Shown one piece after another: positions 35,452 through 45,571 of a stretch of DNA of 64,000 bases. Position 1 is the first letter of the stretch. Each line of letters begins with the position of its first letter. The position numbers were made by a program, and so were the translations under genes. A model generated the notes under the pieces. It was given only the letters and a program-made list of their open reading frames with translations, searched no databases and had not been told where the DNA came from. Source of the stretch: Mycolicibacterium goodii (lineage in GTDB: Bacteria > Actinomycetota > Actinomycetes > Mycobacteriales > Mycobacteriaceae); NCBI RefSeq assembly GCF_022370755.2, contig NZ_CP092364.2, forward strand, positions 6,510,001-6,574,000, given 5' to 3'.

Positions 35452-37233
35452 ATGTCATACGACGTCATCGTCCGCAACGGTCTGTGGTTCGACGGGACGG
35501 GTAAACCACCCCGGGTCCGCACCCTCGGTATCCGCGACGGGGTCGTCGCCGCGGTGTCGACCAAGCCCCTCGACGAGGCCGGATGTCCCGAGGTGATCGA
35601 CGCGGGCGGCAAATGGGTGGTTCCTGGCTTCGTCGACGTGCACACCCACTACGACGCCGAGGTCCTGCTCGACCCCGGACTCCGTGAATCCGTGCGCCAC
35701 GGTGTCACCACGGTGCTGTTGGGGATGTGCTCGCTGTCGACCGTGTACTCCGACGCCGAGGACGCCGCCGACCTGTTCAGCCGCGTGGAGGCCGTGCCCC
35801 GCCAGTTCGTCCTCGGCGCACTGCAGGCGCACAGGACCTGGTCGAATCCCGCCGAGTACGTCGCGGCGATCGACGCGCTGCCGCTCGGCCCGAATATCGC
35901 CTCGCTGCTGGGGCATTCGGATCTGCGCGCATCGGTGCTCGGCCTCGACCGTGCCACCACGCGCGGCGTGATCCCCAGCGACGCCGAACTTGAGGAGATG
36001 GCCGACAAACTGGACGCGGCCCTCGACGCCGGGATGCTCGGCATGTCCGGCATGGATGCGGCGATCGACAAGCTCGACGGTGACCGGTTCCGTTCGCGGG
36101 CACTGCCTTCGACATTCGCGACCTGGCGTGAACGTCGTCGGCTCATCAAGGTGCTGCGTCGGCGTGGCCGCATCTTGCAGAGCGCCCCGAACGTCGCGCG
36201 GGCGCAGGAGGCGCTGAACTTCTTCCTGGAGAGCAGCGGCATGTTCGGGCGCCGTCGCGGGGTGCGGATGAGCCTGCTGGTATCGGCCGACGCGAAATCC
36301 TCACCCGGTGCCGCGCGCGTGATCGGGCTGGGCACCCGGCTGATGAACAAGGCGCTCGACGCCAAGGTGCGTTTTCAGCATCTGCCGGTGCCGTTCGAAT
36401 TGTATTCGGATGGAATCGATCTGCCGGTGTTCGAGGAGTTCGGGGCGGGAACCGCGGCGCTGCATCTGCGTGATCAGCTCGAGCGCAACAAGCTGCTCGC
36501 CGACCCGGAATACCGCCGTCGGTTCCGCCGGTCGTTCGACCGCCGTAAGCTCGGACCGACGTTGTGGCACCGCGACTTCCACGACGCCACCATCGTCGAA
36601 TGCCCGGACACGAGCCTGATCGGCAAGACCTTCGGCCAGATCGCCGATGAGCGTGGCGTCCACCCGCTCGACGCGTTCCTCGACGTGCTCGTCGACAACG
36701 GCGAGAAGAACGTGCGCTGGACGACGATCGTCGCCAACCACCGGCCCAAGGTGCTCGATCAGCTCGCGAACGATCCCGCGGTGCACATGGGCTTCTCTGA
36801 TGCCGGTGCGCACCTGCGGAACATGGCGTTCTACAACTACCCGCTGCGGCTGCTGAAGCGGGTCCGCGACGCCCAGCTCTGCGGGCGACCTTTCCTGACC
36901 ACCGAACGTGCCGTGTACCGGTTGACCGCGGAGGTGGCCGACTGGTTCGGCGTCGACGCGGGCACGCTGCGCGAAGGGGACCGGGCCGACTTCGTGGTGA
37001 TCGATCCCAACTGCCTCAACTCCGACGTCGACGCGTACCACGAGGAGACCGTGCCGTTCTACGGCGGGCTGAGCCGCATGGTCAACCGCAACGACGACGC
37101 CGTGGTCGCGACGGCGGTCAACGGCACCGTGGTGTACGGCAGGGGCAAGTTCCGCGACGGCTACGGCGAGACCGTGAAGTCGGGTCGCTACCTGCGCGCC
37201 GGTGCCGACAGCCGCATGAGAACCGCTGTCTGA
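35452..37233 (+). CDS. N-acyl-D-amino-acid deacylase / D-aminoacylase-family amidohydrolase
   Basis: A 593-residue metal-dependent amidohydrolase. Metal motif VDVHTHYDAE (His64, His66) follows the composite beta-sandwich N terminus DVIVRNGLWFDGTG. GHSDLRASVLG (third His), the bridging region GMCSLSTVYSDAEDAA and FSDAGAHLRNMA (catalytic Asp) complete the site. C-terminal LREGDRADFVVIDPNCL rebuilds the sandwich. The family removes acyl groups from D-amino acids; longer members may act on other N-acyl compounds. In an operon with TetR 1 bp downstream. ATG with ribosome site GGAGG. Confidence 0.87.
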   Translation: MSYDVIVRNGLWFDGTGKPPRVRTLGIRDGVVAAVSTKPLDEAGCPEVIDAGGKWVVPGFVDVHTHYDAEVLLDPGLRESVRHGVTTVLLGMCSLSTVYSDAEDAADLFSRVEAVPRQFVLGALQAHRTWSNPAEYVAAIDALPLGPNIASLLGHSDLRASVLGLDRATTRGVIPSDAELEEMADKLDAALDAGMLGMSGMDAAIDKLDGDRFRSRALPSTFATWRERRRLIKVLRRRGRILQSAPNVARAQEALNFFLESSGMFGRRRGVRMSLLVSADAKSSPGAARVIGLGTRLMNKALDAKVRFQHLPVPFELYSDGIDLPVFEEFGAGTAALHLRDQLERNKLLADPEYRRRFRRSFDRRKLGPTLWHRDFHDATIVECPDTSLIGKTFGQIADERGVHPLDAFLDVLVDNGEKNVRWTTIVANHRPKVLDQLANDPAVHMGFSDAGAHLRNMAFYNYPLRLLKRVRDAQLCGRPFLTTERAVYRLTAEVADWFGVDAGTLREGDRADFVVIDPNCLNSDVDAYHEETVPFYGGLSRMVNRNDDAVVATAVNGTVVYGRGKFRDGYGETVKSGRYLRAGADSRMRTAV

Positions 37234-37234
37234 C

Positions 37235-37816
37235 ATGGCCAGAACTCAGCAGCAGCGCCGCGAGGAGACCGTCGCACGTCTGCTCGACGCGAGCATCGCG
37301 ACGATCATCGACATCGGGTACGCCAAGGCGTCGGCGGCGGTCATCGCGCGGCGCGCAAAGGTGTCCGACGGTGCACTGTTCCGGCATTTCCCCACGATGG
37401 GGGACTTCATGGCGGCCACGGCCCACGAGGTGATGCGCCGCCAACTTGAGGTGTTCTCGAAACGGATCGCCGAGATCCCGGCCGACCAGCCGCCGCTGCA
37501 GGCCGTGCTGACGATCCTGCGTGATGTCACGGGCAACGACACCAACACCGTGATGTACGAGTTGCTGATCGCCGCGCGCACCGACGAAAAGCTGCGCGCC
37601 ACACTGCAAGAGGTGCTCACCGAGTACGCCGCCAACATCTACGAGACCGCACGGACCATCCCGGGTTTCGAGCAGTTCCCGGAGGGGGAGTCCATGGCTG
37701 CGGTGGCGCTGCTGGTCAACACGTTCGACGGGGCCGCGATCATCCGGCCGGTGCTGGCGCAGCCCGAACTCGAAGACGCTCGCATCGCGCTGCTGTCGTC
37801 GCTGTTCAGCCGCTGA
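37235..37816 (+). CDS. TetR-family transcriptional regulator
   Basis: A 193-residue regulator. The N-terminal helix-turn-helix (about residues 12-58, AKASAAVIARRAKVSDGALFRHFPTMGDFMAA) is a clear TetR domain, followed by an all-helical ligand domain. The gene begins one base after the amidohydrolase stop, so the two are cotranscribed. It probably represses the operon at the palindrome at 35401-35416. The ligand is unknown; an N-acyl amino acid or fatty-acid-like compound is possible from context. Confidence 0.9.
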   Translation: MARTQQQRREETVARLLDASIATIIDIGYAKASAAVIARRAKVSDGALFRHFPTMGDFMAATAHEVMRRQLEVFSKRIAEIPADQPPLQAVLTILRDVTGNDTNTVMYELLIAARTDEKLRATLQEVLTEYAANIYETARTIPGFEQFPEGESMAAVALLVNTFDGAAIIRPVLAQPELEDARIALLSSLFSR

Positions 37817-37834: not shown

Positions 37835-39100
37835 CTAACGTCGCGACGCAAGTGCGGTCAGATGCACGGCGATTCCGACCAGCGGCCCGCACAGCAGGGC
37901 GATGACGGTCCTCGTCTCGAGCTCGAGCGGCAGTAGCAGCAGCCCAACGGCGGCGACTGTCGCGACGATCCACCCCAGCGCATATGCGCGGTGCAACGCG
38001 GCGGCCACCGCGGCCGCGCCGGTGAGTGTGAGCATCGCGATCGCCACGGCCGCGGCGGTCAACCAGGCCAGCAGCGTCCCGTCGGCGCGGTACTCGTCGC
38101 CGAAACCGACCTTCAGCAGCCACGGCCCGATCAGCCCGGCCGCGACGACGCCGACCGCACCGATTCCGGCGACGACGGCGGCAGGTATCGCCAGCGCGCG
38201 CATCCGTGCGCTGCGCTGGTCGACGAAGTGGGCGATCAGGTTGCCCTGCATCGCGGTCAGCGGCACGAGCAGAGGCGCCCGGGTGAGCGTGACGGCCAGG
38301 ATCACCACACCGCCGGTGGCGCCGAGATCGGCCGACGTGGCCTGCAGCAGCACCGGGAAACCCATCACCAGTATCGCGCTGGCACCGGCCGCGGCGATCG
38401 AGTGCGCGGTTCCGCGCACGAACGTCACGGTGCCGCCCGCGGTGACCTGACGGGCCGCGAGCCGTGCGGCGGGCGCCGCGAGCAGCAGGATCAGCCAGGC
38501 GCCGGCCCCGGCCACGGTGGCCCACAGATAGCCGCCCAGCCCCCAGCCCGATACGAACGACGCGGCCGCGACCGCGACGCGGATGCCGGCGTCGGTCACC
38601 ATCAATGCGCCGTACTCGGTCCAGCGGCCGATGCCGGCGAGCATGCCCAAAAGCGTTGCATGCAGGCAGAATCCGGCCAGACCAGCGCTGAGCAGCGCGA
38701 CGCTCATGGCCCGGGATTCGACGAACACGTGCGCACCCCACAGCGGCGAGGTCGCCGCGATCACGAGTGCGGCGACCACACCGACCGCGGCGGCCACCCG
38801 CATCGGATGCGTGCGCGCACCGTCGACGGCGGGGGTGAACTGCGCCGATCTGACCTCGCGGGTGGCCTCCTGCAGCAGGCCGTTGGCCGCGCCGGTGACG
38901 AGTCCGAACGCGCCCCAGAACACCGCGAACACCGAGAAGCCCGCGGGTTCCAGGTCGCGAGCGGCGAGGTACAGGACGGCGTAGCCGCACACGGCCGTGA
39001 CGGCGGTGGCCGCCCCGACACGGGCGACGCTGCTGCGGGTGATCGGCCCCCGCGCGGGATCGTCCGGGTCGAATGGCGCAGGGGCGCCGCCGTCGGTCAC
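37835..39100 (-). CDS. MATE/Wzx-like polytopic membrane protein, last gene of the Pls operon
   Basis: A 421-residue membrane protein with about twelve hydrophobic segments arranged as in the MOP (Wzx/MviN/MATE) flippase group. It has LYLAARDLEPAGFSVFAVFW near the start and LMVTDAGIRVAVAAASFV midway. GTG at 39100 overlaps the stop of the peptidase gene (GTGA), so it is translated with that gene. A lipid or product flippase/exporter is the natural reading. Similar proteins in mycobacteria (Rv3630 type) are annotated only as integral membrane proteins. It converges on the TetR gene with an 18-bp gap. Confidence 0.78.
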   Translation of the reverse strand: MTDGGAPAPFDPDDPARGPITRSSVARVGAATAVTAVCGYAVLYLAARDLEPAGFSVFAVFWGAFGLVTGAANGLLQEATREVRSAQFTPAVDGARTHPMRVAAAVGVVAALVIAATSPLWGAHVFVESRAMSVALLSAGLAGFCLHATLLGMLAGIGRWTEYGALMVTDAGIRVAVAAASFVSGWGLGGYLWATVAGAGAWLILLLAAPAARLAARQVTAGGTVTFVRGTAHSIAAAGASAILVMGFPVLLQATSADLGATGGVVILAVTLTRAPLLVPLTAMQGNLIAHFVDQRSARMRALAIPAAVVAGIGAVGVVAAGLIGPWLLKVGFGDEYRADGTLLAWLTAAAVAIAMLTLTGAAAVAAALHRAYALGWIVATVAAVGLLLLPLELETRTVIALLCGPLVGIAVHLTALASRR

Positions 39101-40434
39101 AGCGGCGGCAGCGCTTCCGAGTACAGCCACGCCTGCCACAGCGGCTGCAGCGATTCACTGGTGTAACCGGCGGCCAGACCGGTGAAATCGTCGGTGAACG
39201 CGGTACCGTGGCGGTGCCGGGCGGTCCAGTCCTGCAGCAGCGCAAAGAAACTCTTGTCGCCCAGCCGGTTGCGCAGCACGTGCAGGGTGAGGGCGCCGCG
39301 CTTGTAGATGCGGTCGTCGAACATGTCGCGCGGTCCTGGATCGGCAAGCAGCAGGTCCTGCGGCGACTGCCGCAACTTCTCGTGGTAGTGCTGTGCCCAC
39401 TCGGCCGCGCTGCGCCCTCCGCTGTTCTCCGACCACAACCATTCGGCGTAGCACGCGAACCCTTCGTGCAGCCAGATGTCGCGCCAGCGCCGCGCCGTCA
39501 CCGAGTTGCCGAACCACTGGTGCGCCAACTCGTGGGCGATGAGGCGTTCGGCGCCGCGGTTGCCGTCGCAGTGGTTGGCCCCGAAAATAGAGATGCCCTG
39601 CGCCTCAAGGGGGATCTCCAGATCGTCGTCGGTGACCACCACGGTGTAGCCGGTGCTCAGCGGGTACGGCCCGAACAACTTGGTGAACACCGTCATCATC
39701 TGCGGTTGCCGTTCGAAGTCGTGGTCGAACGTCGCGCGCAGCCGCGGCGGCAGCACGGCGTGCATCGGCACCGGAGTTTTCGCCATCCGGTGCGATTCGT
39801 ACATCCCGATCTGCAGCGTGATCAGGTATGTCGATGTCGGCTCGGCAAGCTCGTAGATCCACGAGGTGTGGCCCGCACGGACCTTGCGGGACACCAGTTC
39901 ACCGTTGGCGAGCGCGAAATAGGGGCTGTCGGTGCTGATCTGGATGCGGTAGGAGGCCTTGGCACTGGGATGGTCGTCGCACGGGAACCACGACGCCGCG
40001 CCGTTCGGCTGGCCCGCGACCAGCGCACCGTTGGTGAGCTCCTCGAAACCGACGTCACCCCAGAGGGTGTCGATGGGACGCGGGTTGCCGCTGTATCGCA
40101 CGGCGATCGTCATCGCGGCACCGGCGGGTAGGGCGGAAGGCAGCGTGATGTGCAGCTTCGCGCCCGAACACCGGAACTGCGCGGGCCTGCGCCCGTTCAC
40201 CGAGACCTTGCCGACCGTGAGGTTGTCGGACAGGTCGAGGGTGAAGGTGCGCAGCGCCGCCAGGGTCACCGCGGTGATCGTGGCGGTCCCGGCGAGCCGG
40301 TTGCTCGCCACCTTGTACTCGAGGTCGAGCTCGTACCGCGACACCCGGTAGCCGAAATTGCCGTTGCCCGGCAGGTAGGGGTCGATGACAGGCGGGTGCC
40401 CGGCCTTCTTGGTGACCTTCTTGAACCTCGTCAC
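39097..40434 (-). CDS. M1-family metallopeptidase (aminopeptidase N-like)
   Basis: A 445-residue zinc peptidase. HELAHQWFGN (HExxH zinc site, about residue 303) followed by WLHEGFACYAEWLW supplies the third ligand. The N-terminal beta-domain begins YLPGNGNFGYRVSRYELDLEY. The usual substrate-N-terminus motif GAMEN is replaced by LEAQG, common in shorter actinobacterial M1 proteins. The protein lacks the C-terminal HEAT-like domain, and no signal peptide is seen. GTG at 40434 overlaps the NRPS stop (GTGA). In this operon it could trim or degrade the NRPS product, or act on an unrelated peptide. Confidence 0.88.
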   Translation of the reverse strand: MTRFKKVTKKAGHPPVIDPYLPGNGNFGYRVSRYELDLEYKVASNRLAGTATITAVTLAALRTFTLDLSDNLTVGKVSVNGRRPAQFRCSGAKLHITLPSALPAGAAMTIAVRYSGNPRPIDTLWGDVGFEELTNGALVAGQPNGAASWFPCDDHPSAKASYRIQISTDSPYFALANGELVSRKVRAGHTSWIYELAEPTSTYLITLQIGMYESHRMAKTPVPMHAVLPPRLRATFDHDFERQPQMMTVFTKLFGPYPLSTGYTVVVTDDDLEIPLEAQGISIFGANHCDGNRGAERLIAHELAHQWFGNSVTARRWRDIWLHEGFACYAEWLWSENSGGRSAAEWAQHYHEKLRQSPQDLLLADPGPRDMFDDRIYKRGALTLHVLRNRLGDKSFFALLQDWTARHRHGTAFTDDFTGLAAGYTSESLQPLWQAWLYSEALPPL

Positions 40435-43400
40435 GCGGCGGGTTTCTCTGTCGTCTTGTTCTTGCCTGCCGACGCGCCGGCGCGCTTCTTGCCGAACATG
40501 TTCCACGGCGCGATCGGGTTGCCCTGCCAACGCATCGATGGCGGCACCTCGTCACCGCGCATCACGAGGGATCCAGGGCCCACCGTGGCGCCCGCACCCA
40601 GCCGTGCGGCGGGCAGCGCCACGCAGTGCGGTCCCAGCGTCGCCCCCTCTTCGAGGACGACACTGTCCATCCGCATTATGCGGTCGTGGAACAGGTGCGT
40701 CTGCACCACGCAGCCGCGGTTGACGGTGGCGCCGGTGCCGAGGCTCACCAGATCGGCCTCGGGCAGCCAGTAGGTCTCACACCACACCCCGCGGCCGATC
40801 GAGGCGCCCAGGGCGCGCAGCCACAGGTTCATCACCGGGGTGCCGGTCGCGGCACGCGCGAACCACGGCGCCGCGACAGTTTCGACGAATGTGTCCGACA
40901 CTTCGTTGCGCCACACGAACGAGGACCACAGCGGATGTTCGACGGCGCGAATCCGCCCGATCACCAACCACTTCGCGGCCACCGCGATGATCCCGGCCAG
41001 CGCGCCCGCGGCCAGGATCACGAGGCCGCTCGCGACCGTGGCCCACAGGTATCCGAAGCGCAGTACCAGGGCCTGCAGCGCGCCCAGCACCGCCACGCCG
41101 ATGCCGAAGGTGATGATCACCGGGACCACGCGGCACGTCTCGACCGCCGCGCGCATGGCCTTCAACCGCTGTGACGGATGGAAGGTCCGCAACACATCGG
41201 CCGCGGTGGCCTTGCGGCGCAACCGCACCGGTGGACTTCCGAGCCAGGACGAGCCGGCCTTGGCCTTGTGCGGCGTGGCCGACAGCACGGCCACCAGACC
41301 GTCGTCGGGCACCTTGCGACCGGGCTGTGTGATGCCCGAGTTGCCGAGGAACGCGCGCTTGCCGATGGTGGCCTTGGCGACGTGGATCCACCCACCGCCG
41401 AGTTCGTACGACGCCACCATGGTGTCGTCGGCCAGGAACGCACCGTCCTGCACCTCGGTGAACTTCGGGGTGAACAGGGCCGTCGAGATCTCGGTGCCCT
41501 GACCGACTTTCGCGCCGAGCAGCCGCAGCCACCACGGGGTCAGCAGGCTTGCGTAGACCGGGAACAGGTAGGTGCGCGCGGCATCCATGAGGCGTTCGGT
41601 GGCCCATAGCTGCCAGCCCACGCGGCTGCGCACCGGGTGGTAACCCTCGCTGAGCCCGATCGACAGCAACCGGACGCCTGCCACCGTGAGCGCGGCGTAG
41701 GCGAGCACCGCCACCAGCGTCGCCACCGGCGTCCACGCCAGCGCGGGCAGCAGCGCGTCGACCGGGGTCGCGGTGCCGCGGATGCCCCAGCCGATCACCG
41801 CGAGACCCGCGCCGAGCGCGACCAACGGAAGGCTGCCCAGCAGGATCGAGGTCACGCCGTACACCGCGACCCATACGGGAGCGCGCGGCGGCCGGTGGTC
41901 GGGCCACGGATGGCGCGCCTTACCGGATTTCACCGCGGGCGAGCCTTTCCAGTACTGGCCGTTCTTGACCTTTCCGGTCACGGCCGAACCCGGCGCCACG
42001 TCGGCGTTCTTGCCGACGGTCGCACCGGGCAGCAGCGTCGTGCGGGCCCCGATCGTGGCGTCGTTGCCGACGGTGACCGGACCGACGTGGAACAGGTCCC
42101 CGTCGATCCAGTGTCCGCTCAGGTCGACCTCAGGTTCGATCGAGCAGCGGTGGCCGAGCTTGGCCATCCCGGTCACCGGCGGTGCCGAGTGCAGGTCGAC
42201 ACCCTTGCCGACGCTGTTGCCGAGCGCGCGGGCGTAGTACACCATCCACGGTGCGCCCGCGAGGTTTTCGGCACCGCTGGCCTCGGCGAGCCGTTCGGCG
42301 AACCACACGCGCAGGTGCACCGCGCCGCCGCGACGGTACGTGCCGGGCTCAAGGCCGCTCAGCAGCATCCTGGCGAACAGCACGGCGATGCCCATGCGGC
42401 CCAGGGGTGTGATGAAAACTCCGAAGCCGGCCAACAGCAGCCACCAGTTGACCGCCTGCGCCCACGGCACGAGGTGCAACGTGGCCGCGATGTTGTTCAA
42501 CAGGCCCAGCCACACGACCCACTGCATTCCGGTGAGCGTCGCCAGCGGTACGGACAGCACCACCTGCGCGGCCTGTGTGATCCGCGAGGTCGGTGCGACG
42601 GTGCGGGTCTGCACCTGCGGCGGCGGGGAGAGTTCGTCGAGATAGCCTGCCAGCGAACCGAGCCGGGGATGGTCGTAGATGTCGGCGACGGTGACCTGCG
42701 GGTAGCGCCCGCGCATCGCGGCGACGAGTTGCGCCGCGGACAGTGAGCCCCCGCCGAGCGCGATGAAATCCGCCTCAGGGCCGTCGACCGTGGTACCGAG
42801 GACGTCACGCCACAGACCTGCGAGCCAGCCCGTGGTGCCGACGAGTTCGGGGACGTCCTGCTCGGCGTCACCCGGCGGCGGCCAGGGCAGCGCGTTGCGG
42901 TCCACCTTGCCTGACGTGCGGGTGGGCAGTTCGTCGAGCAGCACCAGGCGCGGAACCAATGCGGCGGGCAGGGTTTCGGCGAGCGCGGCGCGTGCGGCGG
43001 CCAGGTCGAAGGCCGGGTCACTGCTGGAGATGTAGCCGACCAGCAGCGGAGTGCCGCTGGCGGTCTTGCGGACCGCGGCCGCCCCCGCGCTGACGCCGGG
43101 CACGTTGACGAGTGCGGTGTCCACCTCACCGAGTTCGATGCGGCGGCCACCGACCTTCACCTGATCATCGGCACGGCCCTGGAAGTACAGGCCGTCGGCT
43201 TCCAGACGCACCAGATCCCCACTGCGGTATGCGCGGCTCCAGCCGAGGGTGGGCATGGCCGCGTACTTCTCGCGGTCCTTGTCGGGGTCGAGGTAGCGGG
43301 CCAGGCCCACACCGCCGATGACGAGTTCGCCGACCTCGCCGAGCCCGACCGGCCGGCCGTCGCGGTCGACGACGGCCAGATCCCAGCCGCTCAACGGCAG

Positions 43401-44366
43401 GCCGATGCTCACCGGTCCGAGCCCGTCGAGTTTCGCCGCGCAGGCCACCACGGTGGCCTCGGTGGGGCCGTAGGTGTTCCAGACCTCGCGACCATCCACT
43501 GCGAGACGGTGCGCGAGTTCGGGCGGGCAGGCCTCGCCGCCGAAGATCAGCAGCCGCACGGATTCGAGGGCCTCGGCCGGCCACAGCGCGGCCAGCGTCG
43601 GCACGGTGGACACCACGGTGATGTCGCGGCTCACCAGCCACGGCCCCAGGTCCATCCCGCTGCGTACCAGCGATCGCGGCGCCGGGACCAGGCATGCGCC
43701 GTGCCGCCAGGCCAGCCACATCTCCTCGCACGACGCGTCGAACGCCACCGACAGACCCGCGAGCACCCGGTCGCCGGGCCCGATCGGGTTGTCCTGCAGA
43801 AACATTCGCGCTTCGGCATCGACGAAGGCGGCGGCGCTGCGATGGGTCACCGCGACCCCCTTGGGGGTTCCGGTCGAACCCGAGGTGAAGATGATCCAGG
43901 CGTCGTCGCGGCCGAGCGGTGCGGCCGCGCGCCAGCCGCGCGACTGTCCGACACCGCGGATCAGGCCCCTTTCGGTGATCACGCCGACGACGCCGGCCTC
44001 GCCGAACACCAACTCGGCGCGTTCGTCGGGGTCGTCGGCGTCGACGGGCACGTAGGCCGCGCCGGCCGCCAGCACCGACAGGATCGCGACGTACAGGGCG
44101 TAACTGCCCGACGGCATCCGGATGCCGATGCGGTCGCCGCGTCCGATGCCGCGCGCGGCCAGCCACGCGACGCTCTCCTCGACGTCGGCGATCAGTTCGG
44201 CATAGGTGAGTTGCACCGTCCCGTCGTCGATCGCGGGTGCGTCGGGAAACCGGCGCGCGGTGTCGTTGAGGATGTCGATGAGCGTCCGCGGCGCAGGTGC
44301 CAGCGATGAGAGCAGGTACTGGGCGGGGATCTCGTGCCCCTCAACTGCGTCGTCCGTTGCTGTCAC
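40431..44366 (-). CDS. Pls-type single-module NRPS (poly-amino-acid synthetase-like)
   Basis: A 1311-residue membrane enzyme. Residues 30-500: adenylation domain (IIFTSGSTGTPKGVAVTH, YGPTEATV, YRSGDLVR, KVGGRRIELGEVD, and the catalytic lysine in RTSGKVDRN). Residues 510-590: carrier domain with the phosphopantetheine serine in LGGGSLSAAQ. After this come three membrane blocks (about 610-690, 850-930, 1120-1190). Each is followed by a left-handed beta-helix acyltransferase-like domain rich in hexapeptide repeats (VGNDATIGARTTLLPGATVG). This order and length match epsilon-poly-L-lysine synthetase (1319 residues), in which the tandem C-domains polymerise one amino acid. The amino acid used here is unknown. 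GTG start at 44366. Confidence 0.9.
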   Translation of the reverse strand: MTATDDAVEGHEIPAQYLLSSLAPAPRTLIDILNDTARRFPDAPAIDDGTVQLTYAELIADVEESVAWLAARGIGRGDRIGIRMPSGSYALYVAILSVLAAGAAYVPVDADDPDERAELVFGEAGVVGVITERGLIRGVGQSRGWRAAAPLGRDDAWIIFTSGSTGTPKGVAVTHRSAAAFVDAEARMFLQDNPIGPGDRVLAGLSVAFDASCEEMWLAWRHGACLVPAPRSLVRSGMDLGPWLVSRDITVVSTVPTLAALWPAEALESVRLLIFGGEACPPELAHRLAVDGREVWNTYGPTEATVVACAAKLDGLGPVSIGLPLSGWDLAVVDRDGRPVGLGEVGELVIGGVGLARYLDPDKDREKYAAMPTLGWSRAYRSGDLVRLEADGLYFQGRADDQVKVGGRRIELGEVDTALVNVPGVSAGAAAVRKTASGTPLLVGYISSSDPAFDLAAARAALAETLPAALVPRLVLLDELPTRTSGKVDRNALPWPPPGDAEQDVPELVGTTGWLAGLWRDVLGTTVDGPEADFIALGGGSLSAAQLVAAMRGRYPQVTVADIYDHPRLGSLAGYLDELSPPPQVQTRTVAPTSRITQAAQVVLSVPLATLTGMQWVVWLGLLNNIAATLHLVPWAQAVNWWLLLAGFGVFITPLGRMGIAVLFARMLLSGLEPGTYRRGGAVHLRVWFAERLAEASGAENLAGAPWMVYYARALGNSVGKGVDLHSAPPVTGMAKLGHRCSIEPEVDLSGHWIDGDLFHVGPVTVGNDATIGARTTLLPGATVGKNADVAPGSAVTGKVKNGQYWKGSPAVKSGKARHPWPDHRPPRAPVWVAVYGVTSILLGSLPLVALGAGLAVIGWGIRGTATPVDALLPALAWTPVATLVAVLAYAALTVAGVRLLSIGLSEGYHPVRSRVGWQLWATERLMDAARTYLFPVYASLLTPWWLRLLGAKVGQGTEISTALFTPKFTEVQDGAFLADDTMVASYELGGGWIHVAKATIGKRAFLGNSGITQPGRKVPDDGLVAVLSATPHKAKAGSSWLGSPPVRLRRKATAADVLRTFHPSQRLKAMRAAVETCRVVPVIITFGIGVAVLGALQALVLRFGYLWATVASGLVILAAGALAGIIAVAAKWLVIGRIRAVEHPLWSSFVWRNEVSDTFVETVAAPWFARAATGTPVMNLWLRALGASIGRGVWCETYWLPEADLVSLGTGATVNRGCVVQTHLFHDRIMRMDSVVLEEGATLGPHCVALPAARLGAGATVGPGSLVMRGDEVPPSMRWQGNPIAPWNMFGKKRAGASAGKNKTTEKPAA

Positions 44367-44590: not shown

Positions 44591-44593
44591 TTG

Positions 44594-45571
44594 ATGCAGG
44601 TAACCCAGCTCGAGTGGATCATCACGCTCTCGGTGACGATCGCCGTACTGCTGTTCGACGTGGTCGTGATCGGGCGCCGTCCACACGAGCCCACGCGCCG
44701 TGAGACGGCGACGTACCTGTCGATCTACATCGGGCTCGCAGTCGCCTTCGGGCTGTGGACGTGGATCTACCACGGTCATCAGTACGGGGTGGAGTTCTTC
44801 GCGGGGTGGCTCACCGAGTACAGCCTGTCGGTGGACAACCTGTTCATCTTCTTGATCATCATGGCCAGCTTCAAGGTGCCGCGGATCTACCAGCAGCAGG
44901 CGCTGCTGGTCGGCATCATCCTGGCGCTCATCTTCCGTGGCATCTTCATCGCGCTGGGCGCGGTGGCCATCAACCAGTTCTCGTGGGTGTTCTACATCTT
45001 CGGCGCGTTCCTGGTGTACACCGCGATCAACCTGATCCGTGACACCGACCATGACGACGACGGCGACAACGCCGTGGTGCGGTTCGCGCGCAAGCACTTG
45101 CGGACCACCGACAAGTGGGACGGCCTGCGGCTGTGGATCCGCGACCCCGGCGCGGGTGGCGCGCGACTGATGACGCCGATGTTCCTGGTCATCGTCGCCC
45201 TCGGCACCACCGACCTGCTGTTCGCGCTCGACTCGATACCGGCGATCTACGGCCTCACGCAGGAGCCGTACCTGGTGTTCACCGCCAACGTGTTCGCGCT
45301 CATGGGGCTGCGGCAGCTGTACTTCCTGCTCGGAGACCTGCTCAAGCGGCTGGTGTACCTGTCGCAGGGCCTGGCGTTCATCCTGGCGTTCATCGGCGTG
45401 AAGCTGGTGTTGCATGCGCTGCACGAGAACGAGGTGCCGTTCATCAACGGTGGTGAACCTGTGCATGTGCCCGAGATCCCGACCCTGGCGAGCCTGGGTG
45501 TGATCATCGTCACGCTGCTCATCACGACCGCCGCGAGCCTGTACAAAACCCGGGTCCGCGACGCCCAGTGA
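44594..45571 (+). CDS. terC: TerC-family Mn2+ exporter
   Basis: A 325-residue inner-membrane protein with about nine helices. TerC signature acidic residues are in the first helix (VLLFDVVVIG), EYSLSVDNLFIFLIIM and LLFALDSIPAIYG. The family (Alx/MeeF/MeeY) exports manganese, partly to metallate exoenzymes. Expression should be switched by the riboswitch directly upstream, which pairs with its ribosome site GGAGGT; the ATG at 44594 is six bases beyond. Transcribed divergently from the Pls operon. Confidence 0.94.
   Translation: MQVTQLEWIITLSVTIAVLLFDVVVIGRRPHEPTRRETATYLSIYIGLAVAFGLWTWIYHGHQYGVEFFAGWLTEYSLSVDNLFIFLIIMASFKVPRIYQQQALLVGIILALIFRGIFIALGAVAINQFSWVFYIFGAFLVYTAINLIRDTDHDDDGDNAVVRFARKHLRTTDKWDGLRLWIRDPGAGGARLMTPMFLVIVALGTTDLLFALDSIPAIYGLTQEPYLVFTANVFALMGLRQLYFLLGDLLKRLVYLSQGLAFILAFIGVKLVLHALHENEVPFINGGEPVHVPEIPTLASLGVIIVTLLITTAASLYKTRVRDAQ

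Follow-up and report, generated by a model that had tools for sequence, protein, structure and literature searches.

Gene pairs in which pls, encoding an epsilon-poly-L-lysine (epsilon-PL) synthetase, stands beside the peptidase gene pldII are already known in other actinobacteria. PldII is described as an epsilon-PL-degrading enzyme (PMC8117764), and excerpts of a second paper report that pldII is translationally coupled to pls and that the protein is found outside the cell membrane (PMC9223678). Coryneform bacteria have a pls-peptidase operon and lysine pockets; the Pls of Corynebacterium variabile yielded epsilon-PL in S. coelicolor, and epsilon-PL was undetectable in C. variabile culture and in C. 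glutamicum expressing its gene, according to the sections of that work drawn on here (PMC8117764). Such genes can therefore be silent. For Nocardia, the excerpted text of a 263-genome study gives the NAPAA cluster class ('like e-polylysin') in 218 genomes (PMC12153302). Searches of the open-licence PubMed Central literature listed no paper that, as judged by title and the start of the abstract, reports a mycobacterial poly-lysine product.

The window analyzed here is a 64,000-nucleotide stretch of the Mycolicibacterium goodii genome (6.74 Mb, one contig). On its minus strand lie pls (40431..44366), which starts with GTG and encodes a Pls/PosA-family non-ribosomal peptide synthetase of 1311 amino acids; a pldII-like M1 metallopeptidase gene (39097..40434), whose 445-residue product agrees with the database entry for the window protein (P0125); and a gene for a MOP-superfamily membrane protein with a MATE/WzxE fold (37835..39100), hereafter the flippase-like gene, for which the longest frame would begin at GTG 39139 instead of 39100. 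All three frames, and the GTGA stop/start overlaps that join pls to the M1 gene (40431..40434, minus strand) and the M1 gene to the flippase-like gene (39097..39100, minus strand), were found as the earlier note had described them. The 4-base NTGA overlap between pls and the M1 gene recurred in 103/103 mycobacterial loci with both genes (GTG in 90, ATG in 11, and TTG in 2), and that between the M1 and flippase genes in 74/74, so neither junction is a product of chance. Adjacency in this recount, and in that of the motifs below, excludes genomes G008 and G015. The stop/start overlap suggests translational coupling from pls to the M1 gene; Sigma-70-type promoters were looked for in the operon, and none was found.

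We consider that pls and the M1 gene are very probably a pls-pldII pair, whose predicted function is to make and cut epsilon-PL; the M. goodii pair thereby joins the kind described above. In the mechanism that we infer, the adenylation domain would activate L-lysine with ATP and load it onto the carrier serine. The C-terminal region, embedded in the membrane, would then join lysine after lysine at the epsilon-amine to give a cationic chain, which it would probably also deliver outward, and the M1 enzyme would cleave that chain, so limiting its length or self-damage. A trimming role had been proposed for the peptidase in the earlier note and is kept here as putative; PldII, in the papers that describe it, is an aminopeptidase that degrades the chain.

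The 1311-residue protein belongs to the Pls/PosA family, matching the NCBIfam model NRPS_term_dom (TIGR02353) with 737.7 bits against a cut-off of 423.1; the match spans residues 600-1285 and model positions 2-695 of 695, that is, its full length. Pfam placed an AMP-binding domain at residues 35-357, a PP-binding domain at 514-576, and a single hexapeptide block at 764-798. We delimited the adenylation domain as residues 27-493 (42888..44288, minus strand), the carrier (thiolation) domain with its GGGS serine as residues 514-576 (42639..42827, minus strand), and the membrane polymerization region, made of helix pairs and beta-helix blocks, as residues 600-1285 (40512..42569, minus strand). The carrier serine was kept in the window protein and in 112/113 rows, the remaining row (G073) being truncated. 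A structural model of residues 600-1311 (712 residues), of medium confidence (mean pLDDT 66.0), featured helix pairs followed by beta strands in a pattern repeated three times, a layout in agreement with the C-terminal architecture of PosA as described in the excerpted text of PMC10522769. Of the domain plan first proposed for this protein, the adenylation domain, the carrier, and the membrane region thus stand, while the three beta-helix blocks depend on the medium-confidence model, Pfam seeing one. Compared by sequence with solved structures, the C-terminal half of Pls gave weak hexapeptide-transferase matches only. Among the best 120 matches shown, the nearest named relatives of this half were M. 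smegmatis and M. goodii proteins (~95-96%), which NCBI names 'Pls/PosA family non-ribosomal peptide synthetase'.

The closest solved relative of the window protein was the adenylation domain of the epsilon-poly-L-lysine synthase in PDB 7WEW (628.8 bits), and its own adenylation domain is 63% identical to this Streptomyces albulus enzyme. The ten specificity positions, numbered as in the Stachelhaus code, were found by motif: D210, A211, E214, S253, I274, G276, T298, V306, V307, and K487, all within the adenylation domain (minus strand). The resulting code, DAESIGTVVK, was the same in the window protein and 7WEW at all ten residues; it was also read in 44/44 proteins of a first set (7WEW, the window protein, and 42 others) and in 101 of 104 mycobacterial rows, with the truncated sequences of G070, G126, and G044 agreeing where letters are present. 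Genome G045, with a frameshifted pls, was excluded from the 104-row set, and locus L130 from alignment A3. Sought in the literature as a printed string, DAESIGTVVK was found in no paper. What this code predicts is the amino acid, lysine; it does not prove the linkage.

The gene following pls carries M1 domains (Pfam), and the named nearest relatives of its product are annotated as M1 family metallopeptidases. The HEXXH-18-E zinc motif, present in the window protein, was found in 102/103 M1 copies, the exception (G008) being truncated. We take PldII to be a member of family M1 as well, the cited papers calling it an aminopeptidase. In the genus sample an M1 gene was present in 105/105 pls-bearing genomes and lay within 200 bases of pls in 104; the single genome with a more distant M1 gene, G045, is the one with the frameshifted pls. 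The possibility that the peptidase gene is not co-conserved with the synthetase, raised in the earlier note, is contradicted by these counts, and the coupled M1 peptidase beside a Pls-type synthetase that it had described matches the published pls-pldII pair. The M1 count omits a fragment in G088, the copies in G114 (37-47%, stops in one), and the second, ~30% identical M1 genes in G050, G087, G091, and G146. The G088 fragment (contig C64, 5195-5353) is a 53-residue piece, 83% identical; as no pls match was obtained in that genome, it suggests that the gene was lost there, or falls in an assembly gap, and was not primitively absent. Outside Mycobacteriaceae, a related M1 gene (46-53% identity) followed pls in 11 of the 12 fetched loci, some of them from genomes of Streptomyces size; in the other, L085, the synthetase relative is split, ~30% identical, and has a different pocket code. 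In some other genera a small HvfX/DoxX-like gene lies on the opposite strand between pls and the M1 gene (L094, 5589-6083, 49.4 bits against a cut-off of 80; L097, 7385-7876). One observation speaks against the pair: PldII is reported outside the membrane, yet a hydropathy scan predicted no membrane helix in the window M1 protein, nor is a signal evident in it. In Streptomyces-type homologues likewise none was evident.

Selection points to working genes. In the sister pairs compared, which were chosen visually on the tree (10 + 10; 10 + 7 usable for the flippase), each of the three genes had a dN/dS well below 1. Averages were 0.07-0.09 for pls and 0.09-0.11 for the M1 gene, indicating that both are maintained. 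By distribution, pls was found in 105/148 mycobacterial genomes sampled, and TIGR02353 in 137/151 genomes and 28/31 genera of the Mycobacteriaceae sample. The synthetase is carried by M. smegmatis. Among 24 named mycobacterial genomes, chosen from 80 named loci, pls was present in 15: in chelonae, franklinii, peregrinum, tusciae, vanbaalenii, and pyrenivorans, and, not immediately beside the flippase gene, in szulgai, angelicum, asiaticum, intermedium, montefiorense, nonchromogenicus, arupensis, engbaekii, and algericus. Among the same 24, no pls match was obtained in two interjectum strains, kyorinense, uberis, persicum, fragae, terramassiliense, Marseille-P9652, and a sinensis strain. The gene is absent from some slow growers and differently placed in others. 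One mycobacterial genome holds a second pls copy, 74% identical (G030, contig C82, 598-4443). Three loci titled as Bifidobacterium breve MAG (L138, L156, and L170) contain mycobacterial pls, M1, and flippase genes (69-79% identity) and are probably mislabelled bins. Beside pls in the window lies a divergent gene for a TerC/Alx-type metal homeostasis membrane protein (44591-45571), near which a riboswitch was looked for and none found; such a gene also occurs near pls in many named mycobacterial loci.

The breadth of this distribution bears on what the product is for. A short or envelope-attached lysine isopeptide, serving as a physiological wall component and not as a secreted antimicrobial, is possible, although we regard it as unlikely. 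The synthetase family is near-core in Mycobacteriaceae, TIGR02353 being found in 131/141 genomes outside the genus (with the lysine code read in part of them) as against 14/381 other Actinomycetota in a phylum sample outside the family, and arabinogalactan genes lie nearby in several genera. However, the Pls products known so far are chains that are set free, none of the neighbor genes scanned was recognized as coding for an attachment enzyme, and a broad distribution would also fit a defense compound.

The third gene raises a separate question. Its product has a MOP (MATE/WzxE) fold that resembles cation-exporting MATE proteins no less closely than WzxE, and the displayed rows of Foldseek and VIA-align name no other fold class, which excludes nothing; its flippase-like identity holds in this sense of a MOP-fold membrane protein. 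It is probably a MOP-fold protein of the neighboring galactosamine (PpgS) locus, with a frame that overlaps the pls-M1 pair in many mycobacteria. By the synteny of its relatives, which was tested, it is probably the orthologue of the M. tuberculosis gene that we take to be numbered Rv3630. Just past this gene, the window holds two more, one amidohydrolase-like and one of the TetR family (35452-37816); in the relative L118, ppgS and a DUF2304 gene lie between the flippase and these amidohydrolase/TetR genes. In a locus of another genus, an AftA-like arabinofuranosyltransferase gene lies between flippase and ppgS (L296, 5015-7234), tying the locus to arabinogalactan.

A three-gene system, in which Pls makes poly-lysine, the peptidase trims it, and the MOP protein exports it or a lipid-linked form of it, appears distinctly doubtful to us. 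The flippase gene immediately follows the peptidase gene in 82 of the 105 mycobacterial genomes with M1 and flippase genes (a set that includes G125, which has an M1 gene, no pls match, and a poor assembly, and omits G015, which has pls and M1 but no flippase match; G008, where a contig break splits the M1 gene, is counted as non-adjacent). The order pls-M1-flippase was kept in 9/9 loci read from other genera, which makes the neighborhood ancient and a functional link possible. Together with the overlap at every M1/flippase junction read, this order is why we do not hold the flippase to be merely an unrelated neighbor. The resemblance to cation-exporting MATE proteins also favors export. So does the situation in the 36 pls-bearing genomes of the genus, that of the window included, that retain the flippase without ppgS (in the M. 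goodii genome the best ppgS match reached 61 bits against a cut-off of 370): there the flippase gene adjoins the M1 gene in every case and remains under purifying selection in the sister pairs.

On the other side, Pls has a membrane region of its own, and the flippase is missing from 97 of the 131 TIGR02353-bearing genomes outside the genus. There its occurrence goes with that of ppgS and not with that of pls, with 36 genomes containing both flippase and ppgS and 3 and 1 containing one alone (36/40); Fisher's test, uncorrected for kinship, gave 7e-29 for ppgS and 0.14 for pls. The pls-flippase distance outside the genus was read in 20 genomes picked by eye. Within the genus, where ppgS was counted in 109 genomes at E <= 1e-60 and in 107 above the curated cut-off, 40 mycobacteria without pls keep the flippase, one copy of which (G114) contains stops and is nevertheless included in the flippase total of 145. 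Among these, G072 has an intact flippase gene while lacking both pls and ppgS; the idea that this copy is broken was rejected, since its in-frame stop precedes the start. Loss of ppgS also goes with a higher flippase dN/dS (0.145 against 0.084, from the hand-picked pairs). These presence/absence profiles in and outside the genus rule out the flippase as a fixed third part, as which it had been proposed; the order with the flippase is often kept but not obligate.

A broader variant would give both loci one history. The mycolic-acid bacteria would have had an ancestral locus pls-pldII-flippase-ppgS-DUF2304, in which the envelope was charged both by galactosamine on arabinogalactan and by a lysine polymer, one MOP flippase being shared; in M. 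smegmatis-like lineages that lost ppgS, the flippase would now serve an envelope-bound lysine polymer alone, and not a secreted antimicrobial. We consider this scenario quite improbable.

A different cationic amino acid as the substrate of the synthetase, such as ornithine, diaminobutyrate, or diaminopropionate, is very improbable. Family members with different pockets do exist, both in the excerpted text of PMC10522769 and among second-copy Pls/PosA paralogues of other Mycobacteriaceae, which served as a control: across ten stretches of ~10 kb each (L285-L294), the code was DFEYLGTVTK in nine, ~33% identical, L294 lacking a readable frame. M1 and flippase genes were absent from all ten stretches. 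The substrate of these paralogues is possibly a shorter diamino acid. The window pocket, however, equals that of the lysine enzyme 7WEW in ten of ten residues. PMC10522769 links the residue at the second pocket position to the substrate: alanine is the state for lysine, methionine that for ornithine, and phenylalanine that for diaminopropionate or diaminobutyrate; the pocket glutamate touches the side-chain amine. The window protein has alanine at this chain-length position, and the methionine or phenylalanine of PosA and the diaminopropionate/diaminobutyrate synthetases was not encountered; the comparison of specificity residues with Pls and PosA thus gave a lysine code and not a PosA-type one. 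Finally, an O-acetyltransferase that acts on capsule or envelope and has no polymerase function, the reading that the earlier note had named against its own proposal, is hardly conceivable, for although the protein has C-terminal hexapeptide repeats and the top fold matches of its C-terminal model are hexapeptide acetyltransferases, its adenylation and carrier domains have intact motifs and TIGR02353 is matched over its full length.

If the preferred reading of an epsilon-PL synthetase with its degrading partner is right, the capacity for a cationic polymer that is uncounted among mycobacterial envelope or secreted products would be present in many mycobacteria. The breadth of pls-pldII in mycobacteria and its old neighborhood with the PpgS locus are noteworthy, and the patchy absence and placement, together with the galactosamine genes nearby, make a physiological role testable in M. 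smegmatis.

Compared with known systems, the locus shares most with the S. albulus Pls-PldII pair: the domain plan, the ten pocket residues, the 63% identity of the adenylation domain, and the coupled aminopeptidase gene. It differs in being mycobacterial, in that its product is predicted, and in that a MOP-fold gene continues the overlapped run. With the Pls-peptidase operon of C. variabile, a coryneform relative, it has the lysine pocket and the peptidase neighbor in common; the sections of PMC8117764 drawn on here do not mention a flippase/PpgS neighborhood. PosA of Acinetobacter baumannii, which makes delta-poly-L-ornithine, shares the synthetase family and plan, but methionine replaces alanine at the chain-length position, and its operon consists of a single gene. 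The M. tuberculosis locus Rv3630-Rv3631(PpgS)-Rv3632 corresponds through the flippase-like gene, which in relatives is syntenic with ppgS and a DUF2304 gene; in contrast, the window lacks ppgS, and TetR and amidohydrolase genes lie past its flippase-like gene.
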